Source: Sulfurimonas sediminis
GTDB taxonomy: Bacteria > Campylobacterota > Campylobacteria > Campylobacterales > Sulfurimonadaceae
Length of the DNA stretch: 64,000 nucleotides
Direction of reading: 5' to 3'
Assembly: GCF_014905115.1 (NCBI RefSeq)
Contig: NZ_CP041235.1
Span: forward strand, 1 to 64,000
The position numbers and the translations under genes were made by a program. The notes beneath the pieces were generated by a model that did not search any database, had not been told where the DNA came from, and saw nothing but the letters and a program-made list of their open reading frames with translations. Shown here piece by piece: positions 31,730-40,491 of the stretch (position 1 is its first letter; each line of letters starts with the position of its first letter).

Positions 31730-32368
31730 ATGAAAAAACATATACTCTTACTTGAAGATGACAAAGCTCTTGCACAAACTCTACAAGAGCTTTTGCAAAG
31801 TGCAAATTATAAGGTAGATATGGTACATAATGGGAATGATGCCATTGACGCTTCGTATGAAAACAAGTATGATTTATATGTTTTTGATATTAATGTCCCC
31901 GATATGAATGGCTTGGAACTTTTGGAGAGTCTGCGAAATGCTGATGATGAAACACCGGCAATTTTTATTAGTGCTTTAATAGACTTGAATTCTATATCCA
32001 AGGCGTTTTCCATTGGTGCAGATGATTACTTGAAAAAGCCTTTTTTCCCAGAAGAGTTACTGATTCGTGTCAATGCAAAATTATCTCAGACTAATAAAGA
32101 TATAGTGTATAAAAATTTGAGATATATACCAGAAAAAAAAGAACTTTACAAAGATGGCAAAATAGTCTCTTTGGGAGAAGTTCAAGAGTGCCTGTGTGAT
32201 CTGTTTATGCATAATATCGGCAAGGTTTTGGACAAAACTGTTTTAATGGACTGTCTTGTCAGCCCGTCAGATGCAGCTTTACGGGTTGCACTCAATAAAT
32301 TTAAACATACCACAGGCTTGGATATAAAAAATATTCGTGGTATAGGATATATGCTTGAAAAAAGTTGA
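31730..32368 (+). CDS. OmpR-type response regulator
   Basis: A 212-aa regulator with a receiver domain (acidic E9/D10/D11, phospho-acceptor D53, conserved K near KKPF) and a C-terminal winged-helix DNA-binding domain of about 90 aa. Its 3' end overlaps the histidine kinase by 14 bases. Position suggests it controls the metal island in response to periplasmic metal. A TTACATGTAA palindrome (31721-31730) abuts its start codon. Confidence 0.9.
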   Translation: MKKHILLLEDDKALAQTLQELLQSANYKVDMVHNGNDAIDASYENKYDLYVFDINVPDMNGLELLESLRNADDETPAIFISALIDLNSISKAFSIGADDYLKKPFFPEELLIRVNAKLSQTNKDIVYKNLRYIPEKKELYKDGKIVSLGEVQECLCDLFMHNIGKVLDKTVLMDCLVSPSDAALRVALNKFKHTTGLDIKNIRGIGYMLEKS

Positions 32369-33401
32369 AAAAGAATCTTTATTAAAGAGTTTTTTACTCT
32401 TTTTTTTATCTCAAACACTTCTTGTTAGTGCTCTTTTTTTTCTCAACTATCAAAAAGAACTGCAAAGCCTTGATGAGACTGTTTTTTCAAAAATGAGACT
32501 TTGTAGTTTTTCTCTGCAGTGCAAAGAGTTTCAATACGATTTTGTCCCCAAAAAAGAGTATGAACTCTACAAACTTTATAAAAATGAAAACGAACTGAGT
32601 GCCTACTTTTCTATTCCTAATTCTACAAAAAATGCTCTAAAAATTTATCTTCCAAAAGAGAAGTATATACAGGGGACACGCACTCTGCAAAAAGAACTTT
32701 TATGGAATTTTTTTATCGTTGTGTTTGTTATTGCAATATTGTCTTTTTTCTTTGCTCTGTATGCACTCTCTCCTCTGCGAAAGGCATTACATGTAACAGA
32801 GGAGTTTATAAAAGATATTTTGCATGATTTCAATACACCTCTATCTATTTTACGCCTCAATGTTTCTATGCTCAAGAGTGAAACGGGAGAAAATACTAAA
32901 ATTGATAGAATAGAAAATGCTGTGCAGAATATTTTGAATCTGCAGGCAAATTTGCGAGCCTATTTGCATTCACATGTAAGGCAAAAAGAGCAGTTTGTAT
33001 TAAAAGAGTTTTTGAAAGAACGCATAAATCTTATAGAGAGTAATTATAAAGATATTCGCTTTTACATAGAAGTTCCGCAGGTTATGTTACATGTAAACAA
33101 AGATTCTTTTACGAGAATTATAGATAATCTGATCTCAAATGCTGCGAAGTATAATAAAAAAGAGGGAAAGGTGTTTATCCGATTTAGTGATGATATTTTA
33201 AGTATTGAAGATACAGGCAAAGGCATACAAAATCCTAAGCGTGTCTTTGAGAGATTTTATAAAGAGCAGGAGAGAGGTATAGGCATAGGACTGCATATCG
33301 TCAAAAAACTGTGTGAAGAATTAGATATTACTGTTCATGTGCAAAGTGAAGTTGGAAAGGGGACAGTTTTCACACTTAATCTTAAAAATATCATAGTATA
33401 A
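32355..33401 (+). CDS. Sensor histidine kinase
   Basis: A 348-aa membrane kinase: helix at about 12-31, a periplasmic sensor of about 85 aa with C50 and C56, helix at about 118-138, then the H-box LHDFNTPLSIL with phospho-acceptor H157 and an ATPase domain (NLISNAAKYN, DTGKGI, GIGIGLHIV). The start is TTG with AGGAT 6 bases upstream, inside the regulator gene. It has no HAMP domain. Partner of the upstream regulator. Confidence 0.9.
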   Translation: MKKVEKESLLKSFLLFFLSQTLLVSALFFLNYQKELQSLDETVFSKMRLCSFSLQCKEFQYDFVPKKEYELYKLYKNENELSAYFSIPNSTKNALKIYLPKEKYIQGTRTLQKELLWNFFIVVFVIAILSFFFALYALSPLRKALHVTEEFIKDILHDFNTPLSILRLNVSMLKSETGENTKIDRIENAVQNILNLQANLRAYLHSHVRQKEQFVLKEFLKERINLIESNYKDIRFYIEVPQVMLHVNKDSFTRIIDNLISNAAKYNKKEGKVFIRFSDDILSIEDTGKGIQNPKRVFERFYKEQERGIGIGLHIVKKLCEELDITVHVQSEVGKGTVFTLNLKNIIV

Positions 33402-33408: not shown

Positions 33409-36207
33409 ATGATTTCCCAAGACTCCATAGAAGCCCTCAAAGCCAGACTTGATATTGTTGATGTTGTCGGTAGCTATATAGAACTGAAAAAGGCAGGAGG
33501 TAATTTTAAAGCACCTTGCCCTTTTCATGAGGAAAAATCTCCCTCTTTTGTAGTGAGTCCGCAAAAACAGATCTTTCACTGTTTTGGATGTTTGCCACCC
33601 TATCAAAAAATTATTACACCCAATGGTTATAAAGAGATCAAAGATATAAGTGTCGGAGATAAAGTTTTTGCTGCTAATGGAGTAGAAACTGAGGTTATTG
33701 AGACAGTTCACCATACAAGTGAGTTTGATATTCTTTCGTTTGTAACTTCACTGAGCGTAAAGCCATCATGTTTCACGCAAAATCATGATATGTTAGTTGT
33801 AAAAAAAGAAGATGCTATTGCAAAACTTCCCTATTTGCGAATTGAAAAAAAGAGACCGTTAAAGTTTTACGGTCGCATAAAGAAAACGCAACGAGAGTAT
33901 GATTTGGCAATTAAAAGAGAATTTGCAAATAATATAAAAATTGGAGATTATTTTTTATATCCAATAAGCAGAGAATTGCGCCAAGATAAGTTTATGGATG
34001 TGTCAAATTTATGGGATAAAAAGCAGTTTGGACCCAATGTAGAGAAAATTGAGACTATTGAAATATCTGAAGATTTTATGTGGTTGGCAGGCTTTTATGT
34101 AGCAGAAGGAAGTACTTATAGAGGGGGGATTAAATTTTCTCTTTCGATAAAAGAACAGAAGTATGCTGATAATATTGTAAGAATAATTCAAAATATTTTT
34201 AATAAAGAGGCTAAACTTTTTTTCAGACAGAGCAGAAAAAATTCTTTGGAAGTTACGATATCAAGCACAAATTTGGAGCATATATTTCAGGCTCTATTTG
34301 GAAAAGGTGCCGAGAATAAACACTACCCATATTGGTTTAATTATCTTAAAACATCTCTAAGAGAAGCACTTTTAAAAGGGTTAATGGATGGTGATGGTTG
34401 TTACAGTAGAAGAACATATGATACCATCAGTGAGAGTTTAGCTGACCAGATTTTAGATTTGGGATTAAGTCTTAAACTTATTCCAACTTGTCGTATAACT
34501 GAATCGAAGCAAGATAAAAATGGTGTAAATCATAGAAAAAGTTATACACTCTATTTTAAACAAAGAGAATCTATAGAGGGATTTTTTGAGTATATTGATG
34601 GTATAGAGTATTTTTTTACAAAAGTTAGAGCAATTGAAAATATTGGGCATGAAGAAATAGTTTATGATATAACAGTCAAAGATAAGACTCATACATTTTT
34701 GGCAAATCATTTCGCAGTAGGAAACTGTGGAGCCGGCGGGGATGCGGTGAAGTTTGTGATGGAGTATGAAAAGCTGAACTATCCCGAAGCTTTGGAGAAA
34801 CTGGCGGATTCTTACAACTTTACACTTACTTATACCGATAACAAACATAACAAACCACGTTCACAGGTTATGGACAAGCTCAATGAGTGGTACCAGTCAC
34901 TTTTGACGAAAAACAAAACAGCCTTTTCCTATCTTCAAGAGCGGGGCATTTATGAAAACAGTATAGAAAAATTTGGTATCGGCTATGCACCTGATTCGAA
35001 TGCAACGCTGAACTTTATCCGCTCACAGCAGTTTAGTATCAAAGAGGCAGTGGATATGGGTGTTGTCGGTTACAATCAAGAACGCAACCAGACCTATGCC
35101 CGTTTTATAGAACGAATAACCTTTCCGATTTTCTCTGCTAATGGCAGTATTGTCGGTTTTGGAGGCAGAACCATAACAGGACATCAGGCAAAATATGTCA
35201 ACTCTCCCGAGACTGCTTTTTTTAACAAATCCCGTCTTTTGTATGCCTATCATCTGGCAAAACAGAGCCTGCATAAAAAGCAGGAAATCATCATAACAGA
35301 AGGTTATCTTGATGTTATAATGCTGCACCAGGCAGGATTTGACAATGCTGTGGCAACGCTGGGAACAGCTTTGACACATGATCATCTGCCCTTGCTGAGA
35401 AAAGGTTCTCCTCGTGTTGTCATGGCATATGACGGTGACAAGGCAGGGCGTGCAGCAGCACTCAAGGCTTCAAAACTTTTAAGTGCTTCGGGATTTAACG
35501 GTGGTGTTGTGGTATTTGATGGAGGAGTTGACCCTGCCGATATGGTCAAAGAGGGACGGGTTGAAGAGTTGAGCAGTATGTTTCGCAAAGCAAAACCTTT
35601 TATAGAGTTTGTACTAGATGAAATCCTTTCGCTTTATAATCTCAAAGACCCAAAAGAAAGAGAAGCATGTAGAGAAGATTGTGTTGGATATTTGAAAACT
35701 TTGTCTCCAAGTTTGCAAGAAGCATATAAACCAATTTTGGCAGCAAAATTAGGTGGTTTTGTTATTAAACCTTCTCTAATTAAAGTTTCTAATACAAATA
35801 GTATGGATACTAATAATATTAGAAAAGACTCTCACAGAGATATGTGGGAACTCTCTTTGATTAAAACTATTTTGGAAAAACCTGAGTATATTGAACAGGT
35901 TCTGGATGTTATTGATCCGAGTTTTTTGCAGTTTCACTCCTTTGAATTTTCGCTGGTACTGCAGGGAAAACAAGATACTCCCGAGATAATGGCTATTCGG
36001 GTAGATGAGACTATCACTCCGCTTCAAGATGAAGAGGCTTTAAATGCGGAACTGATTACCTTTTTGACAAGATACTATGAAAGAGAGTTGAAAAAGGTCA
36101 ATATTGCTTCAAATATCAGTTTTGAAGAGAAAGCCTTTTATATCCGAAAATTCCGGGGAAAAATTGCAAAACTCAAAAGAGGGGAACTGGTCACACCGAA
36201 TGATTGA
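33409..36207 (+). CDS. dnaG: DNA primase DnaG, interrupted by an in-frame intein
   Basis: Makes RNA primers for replication. The open frame is 932 aa, of which 379 are an intein, leaving a 553-aa primase. The N-terminal zinc-binding domain has C37, H40 and C58; the fourth ligand is C440 after the intein, giving HCFG-CGAGGDAV on splicing. The TOPRIM core has EGYLDV (E631 in the precursor) and YDGDKAGR. The C-terminal helicase-binding region is diverged. There is no stop or frameshift in the exteins or intein, so the product should be functional if splicing works. Confidence 0.96.
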   Translation: MISQDSIEALKARLDIVDVVGSYIELKKAGGNFKAPCPFHEEKSPSFVVSPQKQIFHCFGCLPPYQKIITPNGYKEIKDISVGDKVFAANGVETEVIETVHHTSEFDILSFVTSLSVKPSCFTQNHDMLVVKKEDAIAKLPYLRIEKKRPLKFYGRIKKTQREYDLAIKREFANNIKIGDYFLYPISRELRQDKFMDVSNLWDKKQFGPNVEKIETIEISEDFMWLAGFYVAEGSTYRGGIKFSLSIKEQKYADNIVRIIQNIFNKEAKLFFRQSRKNSLEVTISSTNLEHIFQALFGKGAENKHYPYWFNYLKTSLREALLKGLMDGDGCYSRRTYDTISESLADQILDLGLSLKLIPTCRITESKQDKNGVNHRKSYTLYFKQRESIEGFFEYIDGIEYFFTKVRAIENIGHEEIVYDITVKDKTHTFLANHFAVGNCGAGGDAVKFVMEYEKLNYPEALEKLADSYNFTLTYTDNKHNKPRSQVMDKLNEWYQSLLTKNKTAFSYLQERGIYENSIEKFGIGYAPDSNATLNFIRSQQFSIKEAVDMGVVGYNQERNQTYARFIERITFPIFSANGSIVGFGGRTITGHQAKYVNSPETAFFNKSRLLYAYHLAKQSLHKKQEIIITEGYLDVIMLHQAGFDNAVATLGTALTHDHLPLLRKGSPRVVMAYDGDKAGRAAALKASKLLSASGFNGGVVVFDGGVDPADMVKEGRVEELSSMFRKAKPFIEFVLDEILSLYNLKDPKEREACREDCVGYLKTLSPSLQEAYKPILAAKLGGFVIKPSLIKVSNTNSMDTNNIRKDSHRDMWELSLIKTILEKPEYIEQVLDVIDPSFLQFHSFEFSLVLQGKQDTPEIMAIRVDETITPLQDEEALNAELITFLTRYYERELKKVNIASNISFEEKAFYIRKFRGKIAKLKRGELVTPND
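33589..34725 (+). mobile_element. Intein with LAGLIDADG homing endonuclease in DnaG
   Basis: Residues 61-439 of the precursor (379 aa). The N-terminal block starts CLPPYQKIITPNGY and continues KEIKDISVGDKVFAANG. The TxxH block is FTQNH. Two LAGLIDADG motifs are WLAGFYVAEG (acidic residue E233) and LKGLMDGDG (D329). The C-terminal blocks are EEIVYDITVKDKTHTFLAN and HFAVGN, followed by C440 as +1 nucleophile. The penultimate residue is Gly rather than His. Splicing, endonuclease and homing functions are inferred from these motifs. The insertion lies in the most conserved part of the zinc domain. Confidence 0.95.
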
Positions 36208-37011: not shown

Positions 37012-38538
37012 GTGATTTCAGTAGATATAAAAAAAGAGACTTCTTCCTTATCTCCTTTAAATACAGCACTTCCGGAACAAGAAGAACCAACGATCTCTTT
37101 TGCATCCTTACTCAAAGGAGAGAAAGAATCAAACAGTAAAATTATGCAAAAAGGTTCATTGATTCTTGCATTAAAGGATGAAAAAGTTTCTGTTGGATCT
37201 GTCATAGACGCAGAAAGTTCAGAACTTGCTTCGCAAATAACAGCCAAAATGTCACAAGAGGATGTTAAAGTTTTGATAAAAGAGGCAAAAGAGTTTCTAA
37301 AAAACAAAATTGTGCAGAGTGAAGGGTACAAGAAAGCCGAGATTGATGCCTTGCCAAAAACACTGGGCGGTCTTGTAGAGCTTGCAAAAAAAACAGGGAT
37401 TGAACTTTCAAAAATCACCTTGGAAGAGGTAAAAGATTTTGCACAGACAAAAGTAAAAACAATAACACAACAGAAATCCTCTCCTTTACAGATAAAGCAA
37501 GAAGCTGTACAAAAGCCAGAAGAAACTTCTTTTTCCCGGATAAAACAAGAAGCAGCACAAAAACCAGCACAAACTTCTTTGTCACAGATAAAACAAGAGC
37601 CAAAAGAAGAGGCAGGCATTTTAAATGAAGAGATACCGGTTCGCACCAAAGTAAAAAAAACAAAAGCAGATGTTGCAAAAGCTCAAGAGACAGAGGTGGC
37701 AGACGAAAGTTTGGAACTTGTAAAAAAAGAGATTGTTAAAAACAGGCAAGAGGTTAAACAAGAACAGAAACAGACCCCATTGTTTAAAGCGCAGAGCAGT
37801 GTTGCTGAAATTACGACGCAGCAAATTGTAGATACAAAAGTAAATACACTGACAATTGACAAAACTCCAAAACAAAAAGTTGATGACACATTGAAGCTTC
37901 TTCTGCGGGGAGAAAAAATCACAAAGAATGAATCAGGTCTTACGGCAGATTTTTCAGTGGCAACAGCAAAGGTTATGGTAGCACCGCATACTTCAAAAGA
38001 GACAGAAAAATCATTAGCGTCTCTTTTGCAAAACGACAAGAGCGAAGATGGCGCTGTACAGGCAAAGACAGATGGATTGAATATTGCAAAGGCAGACAGT
38101 TTTGAGGTAAAACTCAATGAAGCGAAACAGATGGTCAAATATCTGTCTCATGATGTAAAATCTGCAATTGAAGATTATAAGTCGCCGTTTACGCGTATCA
38201 AAGTTCAGTTAAATCCACAAAGACTGGGTGAGGTTGATCTGACGATAGTACAACGCGGAAAAAATCTTCATATAAATATCAGTTCAAACAATACTGCCAT
38301 CAATACTCTGGCTATGAATGTACAGGACTTAAAAGTGCAATTACAAAATAATGGAATACAAAATGCTTTTTTAAATTTTAACAGTAATGCTCAAAGCGAA
38401 AACTCTCAAGCCGGACAGCAGGAACAGCAAAGACAAAACCAGCAAAAGGCTGATGACGAGTACAACTATTTTGAAACTCTGCAGAGCAATGAAGAAGTTT
38501 TAAGCTCATTGGAAATTGTAGTTCCATACTACGCATAA
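37012..38538 (+). CDS. fliK: Flagellar hook-length control protein FliK
   Basis: A 508-aa molecular ruler for hook length. The long N-terminal part is Lys/Glu/Gln-rich and low in complexity, with imperfect repeats of a unit like IKQEAxQKP near 163-200. The conserved C-terminal hook domain is seen as LNPQRLGEVDLTI and the Gln-rich end. The start is GTG with AGGAG at 37001-37005, 6 bases upstream. First gene of a fliK-flgD-flgE operon behind a sigma-54 promoter. Confidence 0.88.
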   Translation: MISVDIKKETSSLSPLNTALPEQEEPTISFASLLKGEKESNSKIMQKGSLILALKDEKVSVGSVIDAESSELASQITAKMSQEDVKVLIKEAKEFLKNKIVQSEGYKKAEIDALPKTLGGLVELAKKTGIELSKITLEEVKDFAQTKVKTITQQKSSPLQIKQEAVQKPEETSFSRIKQEAAQKPAQTSLSQIKQEPKEEAGILNEEIPVRTKVKKTKADVAKAQETEVADESLELVKKEIVKNRQEVKQEQKQTPLFKAQSSVAEITTQQIVDTKVNTLTIDKTPKQKVDDTLKLLLRGEKITKNESGLTADFSVATAKVMVAPHTSKETEKSLASLLQNDKSEDGAVQAKTDGLNIAKADSFEVKLNEAKQMVKYLSHDVKSAIEDYKSPFTRIKVQLNPQRLGEVDLTIVQRGKNLHINISSNNTAINTLAMNVQDLKVQLQNNGIQNAFLNFNSNAQSENSQAGQQEQQRQNQQKADDEYNYFETLQSNEEVLSSLEIVVPYYA

Positions 38539-38548
38539 AGGATATATT

Positions 38549-39205
38549 ATGACAATAGATACAACAGCAAATAATTCGGCACTCTCAGCAGCTACATCGT
38601 CTGACAATCCAAAAGGAACACTCGGGAAGGATGATTTTATGAAGCTGCTTTTGGTACAGCTTCAATACCAGGATCCCACGGAACCGACGGATACGGAAAC
38701 CATATTGACACAGACTTCCCAGTTGGCCAGTCTTGAGTCGGCAGATAATACAAATGCAGCTTTGGAGAAGCTAACAGCTTCTTTGGGAAGTTCGCAACAG
38801 TTTTCGACTATTGCAGCGATAGGAAAAACTGCTGACCTTGGCAGTGATGCAATTGCTCATGACAAGGGAACAGAGACTACTTTTGAAGTTTATTTTCCAA
38901 ATGCAGTCGAACAGGGTACGGTTTCTATTACAGATGCAGACGGAAATACTGTACAGACTTTGGATGTCGGAACAAACCCTTCAGGTGTGTATCAGTTTAC
39001 ATGGGATGGTACAGACACTGCGGGCAATCAGGCTGAGAGTGCCATTTATCATGTGAATGCACAGTATGTAGATGCAAATGGTGATACACAGCAAACACGC
39101 TTGGGAGCTTATCCTATAGAGTCTGTGCGATTTGACAATGGAAATACACTTGTAAAAGTCGGTTCAAATTATGTGCCGTTAGAGAGCATAAAAGAAGTTT
39201 ACTAA
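38549..39205 (+). CDS. flgD: Flagellar hook assembly (capping) protein FlgD
   Basis: A 218-aa scaffold that caps the growing hook. The N-terminal motif is LGKDDFMKLLLVQLQYQDP, and the C-terminal half has the FlgD Ig-like domain (GVYQFTWDGTDTAGN). Preceded by AAAGGAT and followed closely by flgE. Confidence 0.94.
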   Translation: MTIDTTANNSALSAATSSDNPKGTLGKDDFMKLLLVQLQYQDPTEPTDTETILTQTSQLASLESADNTNAALEKLTASLGSSQQFSTIAAIGKTADLGSDAIAHDKGTETTFEVYFPNAVEQGTVSITDADGNTVQTLDVGTNPSGVYQFTWDGTDTAGNQAESAIYHVNAQYVDANGDTQQTRLGAYPIESVRFDNGNTLVKVGSNYVPLESIKEVY

Positions 39206-39219
39206 AAGAAGGATTTGTT

Positions 39220-40491
39220 ATGATGACGCAAGCATTTTATACGGGAATATCCGGCTTAAAAACATCTTCTGGTGGTATTGATGTTGTTTCAGATAATCTT
39301 GCAAATATTTCTACTGTCGGATTTCGTGCATATAATGCTGAATATTCAACACTTTTTGAAGACAGTTTAGCCAGCGCATCAAATAATCTTGCTCTGAACA
39401 ACAGTATAGGTACTGGTGTGCAGATGCAGTCAACTTCTCTCTCCCTGGCACAGGGAACTTTGTCACTTTCTGACAGAAGTACAGATTTGGCTATTTTGGG
39501 TGATGGCTGGTTTGGAATTGAACAAGGCGGGGCACCACTCTATACCCGAGCGGGAGACTTTACTTTTGATGCAAACAGTGACCTTGTCACTACTGATGGG
39601 TACTATGTTCTTGGAACAATGGGAAATAATATCAGTGAAGATAACATACTTACACAAACACTTAATGAAGTTCCCTTAGGTGGTGTAAATGAGCAAGAAA
39701 AACTGCGTTTTCCAAAAACCCTCACATATCCTCCTGAACCAACAACACAAGTGAAATTCTTAGGAAATGTAGGTGTGGGTGCAGAAGGTTCAGAAGTGGT
39801 TACAATGGGAGCAAGTGTTATTGATCCTCAAAATAATCGTAATGAGTTACGTTTAGAATTTACAAAATCAGCAGTGCAAACCCCACCGGGAACACAATGG
39901 GACGTTACAGCAACAACGAAATCACTTGACGGGCAAATAACTTATGATACACAAACCGGAACAGTTGCATTTGATGAAACAGGTGCCCTCGTCTCATCCA
40001 CATTAACAACTATAGACAATAATGGTACACCTGTCACCATTGATCTTGGTACAGCATATGATGGGGTTGTTTCAATCGACATACCTGTAGTACCTGGCTC
40101 TTCTGTGGCTGACGGAACAATAGGGGGAGAACTTGACGGATATGCAATCAATAAAAACGGTGAAGTAATCGCAACGTTTACAAATGGAAGACAGAGTAGT
40201 GTCGGACGTATAGCTGTATATCATTTTGTCAATGATCAGGGACTGGAGAGGATAACTGGTACCCGATTTGGAGTAAGTTCCAACAGTGGTGAACCAATCT
40301 TTTTTCAAGATGCCAATGGGCAAAATATAATTGGAACAGATATTATAAATTTCAGATTAGAAGGCTCCAACGTTGCAATGAGCGGGGGACTTACAGAACT
40401 TATAATTTTGCAGCGGGCATATGATGCAAATTCGAAATCTATTACTACAGCAGATCAAATGATGCAAAAAGCGCTCAATATGGATGCCTAA
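39220..40491 (+). CDS. flgE: Flagellar hook protein FlgE (first copy)
   Basis: A 423-aa axial protein: N-terminal rod/hook signature (MTQAFYTGISGLKTSSGGID, then VSDNLANISTVGF) and C-terminal coiled-coil region (SNVAMSGGLTELIILQRAYDA). The start ATG follows AGAAGGA with 7 bases between. It is shorter than the second hook gene at 40694; Campylobacterota often carry two FlgE-type proteins. Which copy forms the main hook cannot be told here. Confidence 0.9.
   Translation: MMTQAFYTGISGLKTSSGGIDVVSDNLANISTVGFRAYNAEYSTLFEDSLASASNNLALNNSIGTGVQMQSTSLSLAQGTLSLSDRSTDLAILGDGWFGIEQGGAPLYTRAGDFTFDANSDLVTTDGYYVLGTMGNNISEDNILTQTLNEVPLGGVNEQEKLRFPKTLTYPPEPTTQVKFLGNVGVGAEGSEVVTMGASVIDPQNNRNELRLEFTKSAVQTPPGTQWDVTATTKSLDGQITYDTQTGTVAFDETGALVSSTLTTIDNNGTPVTIDLGTAYDGVVSIDIPVVPGSSVADGTIGGELDGYAINKNGEVIATFTNGRQSSVGRIAVYHFVNDQGLERITGTRFGVSSNSGEPIFFQDANGQNIIGTDIINFRLEGSNVAMSGGLTELIILQRAYDANSKSITTADQMMQKALNMDA

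Follow-up and report, generated by a model that had tools for sequence, protein, structure and literature searches.

The DNA primase gene dnaG of Sulfurimonas sediminis is interrupted, at a cysteine of its zinc ribbon, by an insertion that we read, with a probability of roughly 0.9, as an intact and probably mobile class-1-type intein, one that is predicted from its sequence and modelled fold to splice and to home and that belongs to a lineage residing at the zinc site of primases. The gene lies in a stretch of 64,000 nucleotides analysed here as a whole (the window; Table 1). The first-pass annotation had placed a 379-residue intein inside the 932-residue dnaG frame; its coordinates proved exact, profile and fold matches agree with them, and the predicted spliced product of 553 residues follows directly. 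When the exteins are aligned with E. coli DnaG, no residue is gained or lost across the HCFG/CGAGG junction, and C37, H40, C58 and C440 each pair with a conserved Cys or His of the E. coli protein, which bears out the claim that the insertion sits at a zinc-ligand cysteine; the zinc-binding role of these four residues is presumed from what is known of the family. All DnaG domains were recovered by Pfam and NCBIfam profiles, namely the CHC2 zinc ribbon, the DNAG_N/primase core, Toprim and the helicase-binding domain.

Table 1. Features of the interrupted dnaG gene, in window coordinates.
Feature	Position	Strand	Basis or conservation
dnaG (DNA primase) precursor ORF, 932 aa	33409..36207	+	TIGR01391 dnaG, 428.4 bits
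N-extein, residues 1-60, ending HCFG	33409..33588	+	alignment with E. coli DnaG
C37, presumed zinc ligand	33517..33519	+	alignment with E. coli DnaG; invariant across 20 rows
H40, presumed zinc ligand	33526..33528	+	alignment with E. coli DnaG and 20-row alignment
C58, presumed zinc ligand	33580..33582	+	alignment with E. coli DnaG and 20-row alignment
Intein, 379 aa (C61 to N439)	33589..34725	+	profile and fold matches, alignment
Intein Cys1 codon, in precursor register of the fourth zinc ligand	33589..33591	+	Cys in 25/25 bacterial and 5/5 viral inteins
Block B TQNH, intein residues 63-66	33775..33786	+	T63 and H66 in 30/30
LAGLIDADG motif 1 LAGFYVAEG, acidic E173	34084..34110	+	Glu in 30/30
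LAGLIDADG motif 2 LKGLMDGDG, acidic D269	34372..34398	+	Asp in 24/25 bacterial and 4/5 viral; remaining two Asn
Block F VYDITVKDKTHTF	34660..34698	+	D360 in 30/30; H368 in 24/25 bacterial and 1/5 viral
Block G FAVGN	34711..34725	+	Gly-Asn in 25/25 Campylobacterota; His-Asn in 5/5 viral
C-extein, residues 440-932, starting CGAGG	34726..36207	+	alignment with E. coli DnaG
C440, +1 nucleophile and presumed fourth zinc ligand of spliced DnaG	34726..34728	+	E. coli alignment, 20-row alignment, comparison of 30 inteins

The complete genome (one contig, 2,320,257 bases) holds a single dnaG match. Since this sole match is interrupted, splicing is very probably required for the supply of primase; self-splicing itself we infer from the lone match and the conserved exteins. 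A response regulator and a histidine kinase gene (31730-33401) end 7 bases upstream of dnaG; on its downstream side (37012-40491) are found fliK, flgD and a gene for a flagellar hook or rod protein. A PF14890 match elsewhere in the same genome, at 1.80 Mb (17.4 bits), was rejected as a second intein: it falls in a gene read as PglZ-like and is devoid of intein blocks. We take this locus (L079, near 1.804 Mb) to be PglZ-like from its reading, and its neighbour may belong to a BREX locus.

Class 1 inteins are defined by an N-terminal Cys or Ser, a block B TxxH, a terminal Asn and a Cys, Ser or Thr at +1, and all of these are found here (C1, T63, H66, N379 and the +1 Cys). We compared 30 inteins of the primase zinc site, 25 of them complete copies from Campylobacterota and 5 viral; invariant in 30 of 30 were Cys1, the Thr and His of block B, the Asp of block F, N379, the +1 Cys and E173. 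The first-pass annotation had all core blocks in place, which holds for the catalytic residues; it gave block G as AVGN/C but did not remark that Gly there replaces the usual penultimate His. A penultimate His before the Asn is usual in class 1 inteins and non-defining, and its replacement by Gly could slow Asn cyclisation. Both LAGLIDADG motifs proposed from the sequence were recovered with their acids E173 and D269 intact. Elsewhere in motif 2, one bacterial copy among 25 has Val for D267, and the G062 intein has Asp for G268. Two motifs with intact acids, together with empty alleles at the identical site (see below), are the marks of a LAGLIDADG homing intein.

The annotation had also named intein models as a check on the insertion, and most of them agree with it. 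When only the intein was scanned, Hom_end (42.2 bits, cut-off 21.1), LAGLIDADG_3 (34.8 bits, cut-off 22.5) and, despite the Gly for the penultimate His, TIGR01443 intein_Cterm (21.7 bits, cut-off 15.6) all matched, but PF14890 Intein_splicing stayed below its cut-off (30.4 bits against 35.8). The Hint fold is supported by a structure model. We modelled precursor residues 1-500 with AlphaFold, using a shallow alignment of 20 sequences and no metal (mean pLDDT 80.8), and found ten-residue block values of mostly 75-96 over residues 61-440, with one block at 65. The intein part of the model (residues 59/61-439) aligned end-to-end on full-length inteins with a Z of 30.4 to both 2cw7 (rmsd 2.7 over 324 residues) and 7qsu (rmsd 2.6 over 314 residues), and many mini-inteins aligned with Z of about 15-17. 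The TliVMA and PhoVMA inteins (7qss, 7qsu, 7qst), PI-PkoII (2cw7) and PI-SceI thus share the Hint domain and the two-motif LAGLIDADG part with the window intein (Z 21.7-30.4), from which they differ in sequence, with 17-21% identity over the structural alignment. Sequence comparison also matched PI-SceI and PI-PkoII, whose chains of 454 and 537 residues exceed the window intein in length. The host proteins of these four inteins are, we assume, other than DnaG.

How widespread is the intein? Within Campylobacterota, the phylum covered by our occupancy data, it was found at the primase zinc site in 27 genomes. Fourteen are in the genus (G000, G062, G019, G029, G446, G007, G477, G018, G450, G462, G012, G472, G001 and G022), where 124 of 135 genomes have a dnaG match, 100 of them as an uninterrupted frame of at least 500 residues and 10 as partial matches. 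The other 13 comprise twelve loci (L063-L071, L073-L075) and G382, which belongs to another family; 11 of the 13 gave usable sequence, and on the extein tree all 11 fall outside the genus rows. In a contig scan with two strict peptides, the intein started after CFG within a primase frame at 23 of 23 loci. Several loci are defective or incomplete: the intein frame is broken in L071 and L074, the C-extein frame stops early in L065, L056 and L057 are cut off by contig ends, and L055 contains ambiguous bases. In an even sample of the phylum (397 genomes), four carry the zinc-site intein (G000, G062, G012 and G382). Matches in G328 and G294 of this sample were discarded as inteins at other sites, judged by eye; the one in G328 (L035), a genome from another family of the order, was read by eye as a ribonucleotide reductase intein. 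When the same 397 genomes were searched with a pattern trimmed to 17 bases, 62 matched; of the 20 loci that were read, G382 alone had a dnaG intein, and L113 held a primase-like frame with no interruption. In three members of the genus (G468, G506 and G476) there is a further dnaG-like gene that shares 39-42% identity with the window primase.

Whether related strains have an empty dnaG site, a question raised with the original annotation, is answered by the 100 uninterrupted frames in the genus and most directly by G011, a single-contig genome in which the primase is 98% identical and the 1137 intein bases are absent. The extein DNA of the G011 gene is 95% identical up to the junction, and no trace of co-conversion was seen around the site. 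The metagenome bin G022 has two contigs at the site (C80 and C43; loci L057 and L089): one spans the intein plus 127 bases of C-extein, and the other begins precisely with the +1 Cys codon and matches those 127 bases without a difference. A contig break at the junction is what an assembly graph is expected to produce if both alleles are present, which suggests that occupied and empty dnaG alleles coexist in the G022 population.

How did the intein reach these sites? Our extein tree comprises 53 primases, of which 24 are occupied and 29 empty, the empty rows being the best-scoring 29 of 100. Left out were L016 for its short C-extein, L071 and L074 for their broken frames, and three empty loci that were not parsed (L011, L025 and L050). 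Two features of the trees bear on movement: (i) occupancy requires 12 changes on the extein tree, 7 of them forced by starred branches, and it differs within the close pairs G000/G011, G007/G027 and G029/G501; and (ii) for 13 members of the genus, the intein and extein trees conflict. The intein tree makes G000 and G062 sisters (99/98), and the extein tree pairs G062 with G007 (100/100). In AU tests of groups picked after seeing the trees, the intein data reject {G062,G007} (p 0.0045) and {G018,G001} (p 0.031), and the extein data reject {G000,G062} (p 2.4e-6). Between G000 and G062 the intein diverges less than the extein (dN 0.106 vs 0.143), and in the other nine G000 pairs it diverges more. 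Shuffled labels required a mean of 17.8 changes against the 12 observed, and 1 to 4 of 500 shuffles were equally low; occupancy is thus more clustered than shuffled, so that it is partly inherited or else reflects the all-occupied rows outside the genus. Given the conflict between the trees and the alternation of occupied and empty sites, horizontal homing of the zinc-site intein is the best reading.

The lineage extends to viral contigs. Scans of IMG/VR yielded five contigs (L076, 213 kb; L077, 335 kb; L083, 108 kb; L084, 45 kb; L086, 160 kb) with a homologous intein at the same Cys of primase-like proteins, inserted in each after CFG or CFS and before the Cys. L084 and L086 were recovered with a DNA pattern that spans the junction and reaches to the seventh intein residue, and again with a longer pattern. 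Among the primase-like proteins, those of L077 and L086 score above the cut-off for the DnaG zinc ribbon, those of L076 and L084 match the primase core and Toprim and have a C-H-C/C set read by eye in place of a zinc-ribbon profile match, and L083 has only a zinc-ribbon match below the cut-off (18.0 bits, cut-off 24.9). No Pfam intein model exceeded its cut-off on the L084 intein. With an HMM of the 25 Campylobacterota inteins, the five viral zinc-site inteins scored 175-277 bits and seven inteins from other sites 22-73 bits; L114 and L119, which have no recognisable end, and L116 were omitted. In a tree of 24 inteins, which uses 12 of the 25 from Campylobacterota, a starred branch separates the 17 zinc-site inteins from the rest; long branches were flagged in this tree. 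The zinc-site inteins are thus closer to each other than to the seven from other sites, which suggests that a single intein lineage of the primase zinc site, common to Campylobacterota and the viral contigs, moves between lineages.

Viral and bacterial sites share runs of identical bases across the junction, of 20 for L084 (with L029), 18 for L086, 12 for L077, 9 for L083 and 5 for L076; both kinds of site encode similar peptides, and the 20 bases are given without a chance expectation. Among the records searched, no named phage isolate with a zinc-site intein was found. P0002 matched 39 records of named phage isolates, the best 20 of the 39 at 21-26% identity, and the matches listed lay in ribonucleotide reductases, methylases, a portal, polymerases and unnamed proteins. 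A single such record matched the intein of L086, and none that of L084; plasmid records gave one partial match. When the inteins of L077 and L076 served as queries in single-protein viral scans, only the queries themselves and one weak other match came back. Two further inserts were observed in passing. The primase-helicase ORF of L076 has a second, distantly related intein in its DnaB-like part (residues about 940-1270), and the dmt gene of L115 (phage P1 record OP279344.1, 301-1323), annotated only as Dmt, has an intein-like insert that begins with Cys and ends VHN/C.

Could zinc control splicing? If zinc bound by C37, H40, C58 and C61 held the nucleophile, splicing and the supply of primase would depend on zinc or redox state. 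The suggestion of the first-pass annotation that the intein's own C61 could take the place of the fourth ligand in the precursor fits the sequence, for all 30 zinc-site inteins have Cys1 in the CxxC register of the native ligand, and there is a precedent in the passages of PMC7360933 on the Mycobacterium smegmatis DnaBi1 intein, likewise in a replication-fork protein, which is inhibited by zinc on its nucleophile C118. DnaBi1 differs in being a class 3 intein in the ATPase domain of the helicase, where the zinc is not a structural zinc of the host protein. Cys1 is however needed for splicing regardless, so that its conservation is silent on zinc, and patchy occupancy with movement between lineages resembles a parasite more than a kept regulator. 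The zinc segment of the precursor model (residues 31-60, block pLDDT 50-52 from a shallow, metal-free model) is uninformative on zinc binding. We consider such a switch unlikely. A wider proposal adds to it that zinc on C37, H40, C58 and Cys1 couples replication to zinc or redox by blocking splicing, and that the lineage passes between phages and Campylobacterota through shared target bases, because the primase targets share up to 20 identical junction bases; taken as a whole, we find it improbable.

Alternatively, the intein may splice with a dead endonuclease, be inherited vertically and be on its way to being lost. The 100 uninterrupted genes among the 124 members of the genus that have a dnaG match, the partial clustering of occupancy on the extein tree and the single occurrences of Val at D267 and Asn at D269 among 25 bacterial copies would fit this account. 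The catalytic acids are nevertheless intact in the window copy, and dN/dS is low throughout the intein: its median is 0.117 (dS was finite for 54 of 55 pairs) and that of the extein 0.073 (finite for 37 of 55), both rough values with synonymous sites near saturation, and they indicate purifying selection on intein and extein alike. The conflict between the trees and the homologous inteins at the same site of viral primase-like proteins also speak against vertical loss, which is in our view very improbable. An assembly or sequencing artefact, or an insertion other than an intein, has nothing in its favour for the window copy beyond the broken intein frames of two relatives (L071 and L074) and is negligible in view of the intein profile and fold matches and of a site and frame repeated across many separate assemblies, including the one-contig G000, G012 and G382.

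What would the mobile, splicing intein do at this site? Its anatomy and distribution point to the following route. The precursor would self-splice by an acyl shift at Cys1, transfer to C440 and cyclisation of Asn439, which would place C440 in the zinc ribbon of the mature primase. In empty dnaG alleles, the LAGLIDADG endonuclease would cut within the zinc-knuckle codons, and the intein would be copied in during repair. Such a site may favour homing on two counts, because the zinc-knuckle codons can hardly drift without loss of the primase and because the host, for its own zinc ribbon, retains the +1 Cys on which the intein depends.

The kind of element is already known. A 2018 review lists "DnaG, DNA primase, Eubacteria" in its table of intein hosts (PMC5874633), which is the same host protein in Bacteria, in an entry that names neither organism nor insertion site and may or may not refer to the same site. 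The suggestion that no bacterial DnaG intein had been described at this site thus needs trimming as regards the host protein; of the site itself, no description was found in the open-access literature. Topoisomerase-primase (TOPRIM) inteins of mycobacteriophages likewise reside in phage proteins of the primase kind, and the relevant passages of PMC5050341 give neither an insertion site nor a zinc ligand. In the open-access literature, we found no paper describing an intein at the zinc-ligand site of a primase, none pairing an intein with Sulfurimonas or Campylobacterota and none linking a primase intein to viruses; the zinc-ligand site and the viral link are thus without a prior description that we could find.

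If our reading is true, a single residue, at +1, serves the intein as splicing nucleophile and an essential replication enzyme as structural zinc ligand. Metal binding and splicing would then meet at one Cys position, in a clean and testable setting for conditional splicing. With its patchy spread, its close pairs of occupied and empty genomes and its viral copies, the primase zinc-site intein is a good natural system for the study of intein homing and of exchange between phages and bacteria.
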